A model generated the notes under the pieces. That model worked only from the letters and a program-made list of their open reading frames with translations, did no database searches and was not told the DNA's origin. 64,000 bases of DNA from Sphingomonadales bacterium (GTDB lineage: Bacteria > Pseudomonadota > Alphaproteobacteria > Sphingomonadales > Sphingomonadaceae): contig JAGWUH010000002.1 in NCBI GenBank assembly GCA_028868535.1, positions 97,773 through 161,772 of the forward strand, written 5' to 3'. Every line of letters begins with the position of its first letter. Within the stretch, counting starts at the first letter, position 1. A program made the position numbers and the translations under genes. This document shows, piece after piece, positions 24,422-49,900 of the stretch.

Positions 24422-24657
24422 CACTTCAGCCGGCCGTGTTCCATCCAGAACAGCAGCCGCCGCACCGGCAGCAGCCACAGCCACACCACCCCCAGCAGCA
24501 CGTAGACCGGCAGTTGCGCCAGCACCGGCAGGGTGGAGATCCACGGCCCGAGCCAGCGCGCCACCGCCATCGCATAGACCGCCAGCGCCGCCACCAGCAG
24601 CAGCACGCCGGCGGGAATCCGCCAGCTCGGTTCCTTGCGCACCGGCTTCTCGACCAT
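24421..24657 (-). CDS. DUF2842-like small membrane protein
   Basis: 78 aa with two TM helices, PSWRIPAGVLLLV...WLWLLPVRRLLFWMEHG. Confidence 0.7.
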   Translation of the reverse strand: MVEKPVRKEPSWRIPAGVLLLVAALAVYAMAVARWLGPWISTLPVLAQLPVYVLLGVVWLWLLPVRRLLFWMEHGRLK

Positions 24658-25232
24658 CAGGCCAACTCCCCATACAGCCGCGTCGGCGTCACCACCGCCT
24701 CCAGCGGCCGGTCATGCGGCTCGACCGGCAGCGTCTCGACCAATTGGCAATCCCACGCCAGCCCCACCGCGCGTGCCCCCGGATGCGCCGCCAGCCAGCG
24801 ATCATAGTGTCCGGCACCCTGGCCCAGCCGGTCGCCGGCGGCGGTAAAGCCCAGCAACGGCACGATCACCCAGTCCGGCACCAGCGCCCCGGCATCGTCG
24901 CCCGGCTGCGGCATCGCGAACGGCCCGGGAACCAGTCCATCGTCGTTCCAGGGATCGCGCCATTCACGGAACGCCATGCCCGCCTCGCGCGTGGCGAACC
25001 AGGGCAGGGCGACCTTCCGCCCGTTCTCCTGAAACCACCGGGCAAACCCCCGCGTCGGCGCCTCCGCCCCGACGGCATGGTACAGGCCCACCGTCGCCCC
25101 CTCGGGAATCGCCCGCGCCAGCACCGCCGGCGGCCGCATCAGCACCAGCGCCCGCGTCGCCGCCGGCAATCCCGTCACATGCCCCTTGCGCACCTCGCGC
25201 AAACGCGCCCGCAGATCGTGCTTTTCGTTCAA
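24657..25232 (-). CDS. 5-formyltetrahydrofolate cyclo-ligase
   Basis: LVPDWVIVPLLGFTAAGDRLGQGAGHYDR motif; position downstream of 6S RNA/zapA. Confidence 0.93.
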   Translation of the reverse strand: MNEKHDLRARLREVRKGHVTGLPAATRALVLMRPPAVLARAIPEGATVGLYHAVGAEAPTRGFARWFQENGRKVALPWFATREAGMAFREWRDPWNDDGLVPGPFAMPQPGDDAGALVPDWVIVPLLGFTAAGDRLGQGAGHYDRWLAAHPGARAVGLAWDCQLVETLPVEPHDRPLEAVVTPTRLYGELA

Positions 25233-25281: not shown

Positions 25282-25422
25282 GGAGTCGCGAGAGTGGGTT
25301 CAGGGTGGAGCGAGAATGGCTGGCTCGCGAGACCCGGAGCGCAGCGGCCTTGATGGCCGTGAGCACCGGAAGCTCGCGAGACGGCCGTTCGCAGCCCACC
25401 ATGGACCCGCTATCGCGACTCC
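25282..25422. repeat. 141-nt palindromic structured repeat, copy 1
   Basis: Outer stem GGAGTCGCGAGAGTGGGT / ACCCGCTATCGCGACTCC, inner GGTGG/CCACC, CTCGCGAG/CTCGCGAG, apical CGGCC-TTGAT-GGCCG; same layout and length at 49202-49342. Confidence 0.88.
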
Positions 25423-25428
25423 GGAGGT

Positions 25429-25599
25429 GACGGGACCACCGTGGGTCGTTTGCCCTAGAAATCCACTGACGCCTCGACGTCAGGTGGGGACCATGTGTGC
25501 CGGCCCTCGCCGCGAACGACGCGAACCGACCAGGGACAGCCCCCAAGGATTGCTTATAGCCTCAGGGATGTTCATGGCGCGCACCGGGCAGTACCCGTC
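25429..25599 (-). ncRNA. ssrS: 6S RNA (approximate ends)
   Basis: Between zapA and 5-FCL, same strand (conserved ssrS position). Closing stem GACGGGTACTGCC / GGTGGTCCCGTC, CCCTGAGGCTATAAGCAATCC resembling 6S CCUGAGCCGAUA, hairpin CTGACGTCGAGGCGTCAG in the 3' half. Confidence 0.78.
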
Positions 25600-25649: not shown

Positions 25650-25982
25650 TCAGCCTTGCGCCTCGATCGTTCCCGCCAGCCGTTCCAGCCGCTCCGCCAG
25701 CGAGGCCAGCCGCTCCGTCGGGAACGCGGGGGCAGGGGCGGGCGCGGCTGCAAGGGGCGCGGCGCGGGCGATCGCCTGCGCCTGCTCCAGCTCGTGCACC
25801 TGGTCGGCCAGCAGCAGCGCCGCGAACAACAGCGACCGCGTCTCGCCATGGGCCTGGCCGCCAGGCATTTCCGAAAGCTTGCTGTCGATCAGCCGGCCCA
25901 ACCCGGCGACGTGGGTTTCCTCGCCGGGTGCGCAGGCCACCGCATAGTCGCGGCCGCCGATCGAGAGGGTGACGTTGCTCAT
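25650..25982 (-). CDS. zapA: Cell division protein ZapA
   Basis: MSNVTLSIGGRDYAVACAPGEETHVAGLGRLIDSKL; coiled-coil C-terminus; upstream of 6S RNA. Confidence 0.9.
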   Translation of the reverse strand: MSNVTLSIGGRDYAVACAPGEETHVAGLGRLIDSKLSEMPGGQAHGETRSLLFAALLLADQVHELEQAQAIARAAPLAAAPAPAPAFPTERLASLAERLERLAGTIEAQG

Positions 25983-48314: not shown

Positions 48315-49094
48315 TCACACGCGCGGCATCGCCCCGCGATAGCCCGGTTCCGCCGGTTCGCCGAAATCGCCGAACAGCACGTCGATTCGCCGCTCGATCG
48401 CCGGTTTCATGTCCGGGTGCGAGATCACGTGCAGCCGGTTGTCCTCGATCGCCCGGCACACCGCCCGCCCCAGCCAGACCGCGCCCATCGGCACCATCGA
48501 ACTGATCCTGCCGACCTGCTGGTCGGCCATCCGGCTCTTCGTCAGCCCCGGATAGAGGATCGAGACGCCGACCCCATGCGGCGCCAGCTCCTGATGCAAG
48601 GCCTCGGACATCCCCGCCACCGCGAACTTGCTCGCCGAATAGACCGAAAACGTCCCGAACGGGATCAGCCCGTTGGCCGACGACACGTTGACCACGTGTC
48701 CCGATCGCCGCGCCTTCATCCCGCCGACGAAAGCCTTGCAGCCCAGGAACACGCCCTTGACGTTGACCGCCATCAGCCGGTCGTACTCGGCATCGGCCAC
48801 GTCCTCGATCGGCTTGAACGGGTGCGAAAGCCCGGCATTGTTGACCAGTACGTCGACCGGCCCCAGCTTGCCCTCGACCTCGGCCTTCATCGCCGCCCAG
48901 CTTGCCGGATCGGTCACGTCCAGCGCCACCGTCAGCAGCCGACCGCCCAGCCGCTCGTTCTCCTCGGCCATGTGCGCGGCGGAGATATCGGCGATCGCCA
49001 CCCGCACGCCCTTCTCCAGCAGCGCCTCGGCAATTCCCGCGCCGATCCCGCTGCCGCCCCCCGTCACCACCGCCACCTTGCCGTTCAGGTCCAT
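48315..49094 (-). CDS. Short-chain dehydrogenase/reductase
   Basis: GKVAVVTGGGSGIGAGIAEAL (TGxxxGxG), VLVNNAG, YSASKFAV. Confidence 0.92.
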   Translation of the reverse strand: MDLNGKVAVVTGGGSGIGAGIAEALLEKGVRVAIADISAAHMAEENERLGGRLLTVALDVTDPASWAAMKAEVEGKLGPVDVLVNNAGLSHPFKPIEDVADAEYDRLMAVNVKGVFLGCKAFVGGMKARRSGHVVNVSSANGLIPFGTFSVYSASKFAVAGMSEALHQELAPHGVGVSILYPGLTKSRMADQQVGRISSMVPMGAVWLGRAVCRAIEDNRLHVISHPDMKPAIERRIDVLFGDFGEPAEPGYRGAMPRV

Positions 49095-49137: not shown

Positions 49138-49176
49138 AAAGAAAACCCCCGCCGATGCTCATCGCACCGGCGGGGG
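49138..49176 (-). terminator. Rho-independent terminator for the minus-strand hrcA-grpE transcript
   Basis: Minus strand CCCCCGCCG-loop-CGGCGGGGG followed by TTTTCTTT. Confidence 0.8.
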
Positions 49177-49201: not shown

Positions 49202-49342
49202 GGTTGCGTGTGGATTTGGCTCAGGCTGGAGCGAGAATGGCTGGCTTCGAGAACCGCCGCGCAGCGTACTTCAGTACGTGAGCACCGGAAGCGCAGAAGA
49301 CGGCCGTTCGCAGCCCAGCATGGGACAAATCCGCACGCAAGC
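49202..49342. repeat. 141-nt palindromic structured repeat, copy 2
   Basis: Same 141-nt length and core (GGAGCGAGAATGGCTGGCT...GAGCACCGGAAG...GACGGCCGTTCGCAGCCCA) as 25282-25422; outer stem GGTTGCGTGTGGATTTG/CAAATCCGCACGCAAGC differs in sequence but still pairs. Confidence 0.88.
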
Positions 49343-49878
49343 TATTCCGGCTTCTTCGCCACCGCCACCATCGCCGGCCGCAGCAGCCGGTCCTTGATCA
49401 TGTAGCCGGCCGCCAGTTCCTGGATCACCGTGCCCGGCTCGGCGTCGGCGTGCGGCACCTCGATCATCGCCTGGTGCTGGTTGGGGTCCAGCGGCAGGCC
49501 GACAGCGGCGACACGCACGATCCCGTGGCTGGTGAACACCTTCTCGATCTCGCGCCCGGTCGCCTCCAGCCCGGCGACCAGCGCCTTGAGCTTCTCGTCC
49601 TCGCGCAGTTCCGCCGGAATCGCCTCCAGCGCGCGCGACAGGTTGTCGGCCACCGACAGCACGTCGCGGGCAAACCCGGTCGCGGCATAGGCACGCGCGT
49701 CGGCAATGTCCTTTTCCAGCCGCCGGCGCACGTTCTGCGTGTCCGCCTTGGCGTAAAGCACCTCCTGCTTCACCGCCTCCAGCTCCGCTTCCAGCGCGGC
49801 CAGCCGCTCCATCTCGGCGCCCTCGGCCTTTGCCGCCACGGCGGCCTCGTCCTGCGGCGGGGTCGTTTCTTCGCTCAT
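49342..49878 (-). CDS. grpE: Nucleotide exchange factor GrpE
   Basis: LYAKADTQNVRRRLEKDIADA, PNQHQAMIEVPHADAEPGTVIQELAAGYMIKDRLLRPAMV. Confidence 0.96.
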   Translation of the reverse strand: MSEETTPPQDEAAVAAKAEGAEMERLAALEAELEAVKQEVLYAKADTQNVRRRLEKDIADARAYAATGFARDVLSVADNLSRALEAIPAELREDEKLKALVAGLEATGREIEKVFTSHGIVRVAAVGLPLDPNQHQAMIEVPHADAEPGTVIQELAAGYMIKDRLLRPAMVAVAKKPE

Positions 49879-49900
49879 CATGTTCCCTGAAATTCCGATG

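Follow-up and report, generated by a model that had tools for sequence, protein, structure and literature searches.

The window, by which we mean the whole 64,000-nt stretch of DNA that was analyzed, carries two copies of a long hairpin element. Copy 1 lies between 6S RNA and fau, and copy 2 lies against grpE. The features at the two loci are listed below, with neighbor genes taken from an ORF caller trained on the window.

24657..25232, minus strand: fau (5-formyltetrahydrofolate cyclo-ligase; PF01812), located after copy 1 when the minus strand is read
25282..25422, plus strand: element copy 1, full hairpin with outer arms, between 6S RNA and fau
25307..25319, plus strand: conserved internal-loop motif of copy 1, 5′ side, GGAGCGAGAATGG; its columns vary little or not at all in alignments of 32 and 99 copies
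25334..25369, plus strand: apical core of copy 1, CCGGAGCGCAGCGGCC..GGCCGTGAGCACCGG; the most conserved section across Alphaproteobacteria
25385..25397, plus strand: partner of the copy 1 loop motif, 3′ side, CCGTTCGCAGCCC
25429..25597, minus strand: 6S RNA, weak Rfam match (RF00013) with synteny support, 3′ end 6 nt from copy 1
25650..25982, minus strand: zapA (PF05164), upstream of 6S RNA
48315..49094, minus strand: short-chain dehydrogenase gene (PF00106), left of copy 2
49140..49176, minus strand: intrinsic-terminator-like hairpin and T run, read from the sequence; lies past copy 2, downstream of grpE
49202..49342, plus strand: element copy 2, full hairpin, 3′ arm against the grpE stop codon
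49254..49288, plus strand: apical core of copy 2
49342..49881, minus strand: grpE (PF01025; ORF limits), stop codon touching the 3′ arm of copy 2

Sequence comparison of the two copies bore out what the sequence-only reading had said of them, namely that each is 141 nt long, that core blocks are common to both, and that the stems differ by substitutions that preserve pairing. The predicted RNA fold was −105.1 kcal/mol for copy 1 (z −11.1) and −77.3 kcal/mol for copy 2 (z −7.0), and for neither copy did any of 200 shuffles fold equally well. The reverse strand folds well too, at −90 kcal/mol for copy 1 and −62.7 kcal/mol for copy 2. We built a covariance model from 32 copies (model R1), with which copy 1 scored 130.2 bits and copy 2 scored 128.6 bits, and no third copy was detected in the window. 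A U run directly beyond the hairpin was absent at both window copies, in both directions.

The 6S RNA beside copy 1 was matched by RF00013 at 32.3 bits, with a gathering score of 46.4, and its identity is supported by its location between zapA and fau, which are the usual neighbors of 6S RNA. The score falls under the threshold as if sphingomonad 6S RNA were poorly modeled by Rfam. The match ends 6 nt from the element, the spacing that had been estimated before any search was run. At the second locus, the terminator-like hairpin at 49140-49176 lies beyond copy 2, so grpE seems to own a separate terminator.

Both hairpins of the two-copy element first proposed are real, but they are not a discrete pair: they are 2 of about 20 copies in their genome and belong to a mobile repeat family. 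BLAST located 18 places in the window's own genome, and the covariance model added a few more. The covariance-model search and the comparison with Rfam had both been suggested by the sequence-only reading. With the 32-copy model, at least one copy was present in 95 of 150 genomes of the genus, with copy numbers from 0 to 23, and in an order-level survey almost every positive genome belonged to the same family. Rfam gave no matching family at gathering score; the window and related loci returned tRNA, tmRNA and 5S only, and the plant miRNA hairpin models of Rfam matched the element far under threshold.

Class-wide and phylum-wide samples gave strong matches in Alphaproteobacteria only, with up to 14 copies in small genomes. 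Weak matches outside Alphaproteobacteria (36-47 bits) fell within the range that true copies reach on their reverse strand (28-53 bits) and were left uncounted. In a genome from another class of the phylum (G603), ten weak model matches of equal length scored 42-47 bits and are probably another long-hairpin repeat. An exact apical-core pattern was found in at least 119 stretches of GTDB genomes, and among the matches listed were Mesorhizobium, Phyllobacterium, Devosia, Pleomorphomonas, Inquilinus, Agrobacterium, Methylobacterium, Stappia, Sphingobium, Novosphingobium and others. Large plasmids also carry the element, while phage records held no match to it.

We examined pairing in an alignment of 99 copies (A2) and in a second set of 55 matches, mainly from Mesorhizobium, Phyllobacterium and Devosia (A3). 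In A2, which like A3 was fitted to the model and hence leans towards structure, standard pairs filled 96.4% of cells, compared with 79.7% in shuffles and 29-41% with slid partners. Double-sided changes were found at 26 of 35 pairs in A2 (501 cells versus 137 in shuffles) and numbered 122 versus 19 in A3. The first alignment (A1), made with MAFFT without the model, gave the same structural signal as the other two. The outer arms extend about 11 bp past the model, and each pairs solely with its own partner (median score 9.4, versus 1.8 when swapped). The internal loops are near-invariant (CCGGAGCGAGAA/TTCGCAGCCCGG and CGAGAACCGG..GCGCAGCG / CGTGAGCACCGGAAGCGCAG); the asymmetric ones are unchanged between orders, and the conserved GA/GCA loops form tandem G-A when read on the plus strand only. 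Covariation over this many copies and species strongly supports selection on secondary structure, as had been proposed from two copies.

The two strands are not treated alike. Among imperfect pairs of A2 read on the plus strand, G-U outnumbered A-C by 91 to 18 with usually-G-U pairs left out and by 345 to 19 with those pairs counted, and in A3 (mostly Rhizobiales; two reverse-strand matches of listed copies omitted) by 54 to 10, the cells of these counts not being independent, so that P values from them overstate certainty. The plus-strand fold surpassed that of the minus strand in stability in 98 of 99 copies of A2 and in 50 of 53 of A3. Since a cruciform or strand-neutral repair would treat the strands alike, it is a single-stranded fold of the plus strand, most simply RNA, that is under selection. 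A long near-perfect palindrome with conserved sequence blocks would be in keeping with a DNA cruciform or the target of a DNA-binding protein; in a cruciform both strands extrude together, however, and equal tolerance of G-T and A-C would be expected, whereas the counts are unequal. We regard this as the least probable of the explanations weighed. The choice left by the sequence-only reading, an RNA or a cruciform, therefore falls on the side of a single-stranded, RNA-like fold, the cruciform being disfavored by the excess of G-U over A-C and by the stability of the plus strand (98/99).

The element also has a preferred placement. Its 3′ side adjoins the 3′ end of a gene (a stop codon, tRNA or tmRNA), and that gene is transcribed towards the element. 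For sphingomonad copies, 106 of 119 right neighbors and 47 of 117 left neighbors are transcribed towards the element (P = 1e-15); among the GTDB pattern matches listed, mostly from other orders, the figures are 103 of 120 on the right versus 52 of 115 on the left (P = 4e-11). Four genomes searched for every copy gave 46/54 versus 28/54, and the orientation agreed in 5 of 7 plasmid records annotated by others. The distance from the model end to the stop codon or tRNA CCA end is typically 7 or 8 nt. Both window copies follow this rule, copy 1 with 6S RNA and copy 2 with grpE, and the 6S RNA link is one instance of it rather than a special association. Other genes of the window's genome that end at a copy include secA, a helicase, ybaB and several dehydrogenases, a variety that points to no evident pathway. 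One locus (L066) is an exception, with the element 12 nt away from the 5′ end of a tRNA-Leu gene.

The 3′ side lies against a gene reading towards the element, which makes the selected strand the antisense strand of that gene. The near-fixed orientation at gene ends suggests that the folded RNA has a job there and is not junk. A family of trans-acting small RNAs, made from the plus strand by their own promoters, would be expected to show a selected plus-strand fold and a very conserved apical core, both of which we observed. The element is a hairpin from end to end, however, so no upstream promoter lies inside it; the left flanks are unrelated between copies, and the fixed position against the neighbor gene argues for action in cis. 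A trans-acting role is thus very unlikely.

Some sites recur between species. Many species have a copy in the gap between tRNA-Ala and obgE or in that between lolA and xth, and in some a copy follows tmRNA; obgE, lolA and xth were named by reading the protein sequences rather than by a family search. On the element tree, copies group by site, needing 17 changes compared with 35 in shuffles, and the clustering is partial; site A needs 7 changes on this tree. A single vertical origin of the tRNA-Ala site was rejected, as presence is patchy on the ObgE tree and site clustering only partial.

The main rival for the role of the hairpin is an ordinary 3′ end element like the REPs of E. coli, in which the hairpin terminates or protects the gene's own mRNA and the minus-strand fold is the one that counts. 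The element does stand directly after stop codons and the ends of stable RNAs, and the minus strand still folds (−90 and −62.7 kcal/mol in the window). It is also suggestive that at tRNA-Ala/obgE several element-free genomes have a U-run terminator at the same place. Yet the plus-strand G-U imperfect pairs would be A-C in the gene's RNA, the GA/GCA loops give tandem G-A on the plus strand only, no U run follows, and grpE retains its separate terminator-like hairpin past copy 2. The strand signal disfavors an own-mRNA role, which we consider rather unlikely.

We then turn to how the copies spread. Recent copies in two genomes (G063 and G230) resemble each other and have TA on both sides; nearly all recent G063 copies have NTA..TAN flanks, with no further match required. 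The element has no ORF, and its first base is G, which restores a TAG stop where the insertion has interrupted TAG or TAA. A pattern for the ends matched one longer element, in genome G103, an 825-bp element with ends reading CTA followed by GGGCTTGTGGGGATTTAGG and a transposase of the IS4/5 group (PF01609/PF13340), the frames of which are broken. The repeat end GGGCCTGTGGGGATTTAGG and the G103 IS end GGGCTTGTGGGGATTTAGG are identical at 18 of 19 bases. In Paracoccus, most ISs of the IS427 group measure 832-865 bp and have 2-bp repeats (PMC3281130). With their TA flanks, lack of an ORF and IS5/IS427-type ends, the recent copies look like MITEs.

A search for an autonomous partner IS gave no PF13340 match in the window's own genome (G000, 83% complete) or in G001. 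No IS matching the end type of the G230 repeats was found, the 11 IS copies of G230 having different ends. An IS630/Tc1-mariner parent was rejected: DDE_3 matches occurred in 10 genomes, and none of the examined loci had these ends. Some copies in Rhizobiales and Inquilinus have other ends (GAGACCGTTT, GAGCCTGATC) and TCA flanks, the reverse of a TGA stop, and these ends resemble the ends of a G230 IS (AGAGCCTGATCCG). The same core is thus carried on two kinds of ends or more.

A longer subtype of the repeat (TAGGGCGTGTTGATATTCAGCCC type) has the same ends 168 nt apart, at G103:C68:47759-47926, G103:C131:334-501 and G010:C51:15994-16161. In G006, a 70-nt part of the core gave seven BLAST matches that scored equally, which suggests a recent burst of another subtype.

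These features of mobility could belong to a plain selfish MITE with no host function, its arms kept complementary by replication template switching and its stop-codon sites being TA-rich, harmless targets in a GC-rich genome. Such an element would account for the TA flanks, the IS-like ends, the patchy copy number (0 to 23), the TA restored as a TAG stop, and the genome-specific bursts in G063 and G230. Template switching is strand-neutral, however, and gives neither G-U over A-C nor asymmetric loops that stay constant between orders; choice of a palindromic CTAG target cannot fix orientation, and copies have remained at shared sites in different species. A purely selfish element is, in our judgment, unlikely.

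Dispersed copies, matching ends, compensatory evolution, fixed orientation and plus-strand selection together show a mobile family with a conserved, strand-specific fold. Our preferred reading, held tentatively and at somewhat below an even chance, is a non-autonomous, MITE-like mobile element with a conserved RNA hairpin core that acts on transcripts entering from the 3′ side of a gene. Using ends borrowed from IS5-family ISs, the element would target a TA (or TNA) that lies within or close to a stop codon or the 3′ end of a gene. Its plus-strand fold would act as RNA on transcripts nearing the gene from the 3′ side, whether antisense or from a convergent neighbor, and such transcripts may be stopped or marked at the gene border. 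Old copies would be retained at tRNA-Ala, tmRNA and lolA. Several observations weigh against this preferred reading: no U run stands behind either window hairpin, the reverse strand folds well, site clustering is partial, and a matching IS is absent both from the window's own genome (83% complete) and for the G230 end type. It is possible, if doubtful, that the family is an undescribed mobile RNA module found throughout Alphaproteobacteria, with its core carried on at least two kinds of IS ends and oriented at 3′ borders, where it would block or process antisense transcripts, and domesticated at tRNA-Ala, tmRNA, 6S RNA and lolA.

Among known systems, MITEs of the IS5 family (IS427 group) share with the element 2-bp TA flanks, the lack of an ORF and near-identical ends, and the 825-bp G103 IS is close to IS427 length. 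Unlike them, the element is an almost complete palindrome with a conserved RNA-like core and oriented insertion, and the same core occurs in other Alphaproteobacteria on GAGACCGTTT/GAGCCTG-type ends. The REP/BIME and ERIC repeats of Enterobacteria are also palindromes at gene 3′ ends, in a different class of hosts; REPs are much shorter and are tied to RAYT transposases. CIR repeats, reportedly described by Chen and Shapiro in 2003 from Caulobacter and other Alphaproteobacteria, are like the element long intergenic inverted repeats, a comparison made by description only. They are defined by association with CcrM GANTC sites, and the element is not so associated in sphingomonads, where GANTC is present in 27 of 119 copies (about background), compared with 74 of 123 among the GTDB pattern matches listed. 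CIR repeats are described as strictly intergenic (PMC10969869). The RIME, Sm and A/B/C palindromic repeats of rhizobia, likewise compared by description only, are dispersed and intergenic with conserved structure, as is the element, and their function is given as unknown (PMC2573895). Rickettsia palindromic elements, about 150 bp long (PMC10969869), are mobile palindromic repeats of Alphaproteobacteria too, but they often insert in frame into ORFs, whereas the element is located after stop codons.

By description the family resembles CIR, RIME and Sm repeats, and it may already have a name; for the strand and orientation results we found no earlier description. Palindromic repeats in bacteria have mostly been written off as selfish DNA with no known function. 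Here the signature of selection is clear and strand-specific, the tie to gene 3′ ends is fixed across orders, and there are many natural cases in which the same site occurs with the element and without it. The family thus lends itself to asking directly whether mobile repeats come to serve as boundary elements for transcripts.
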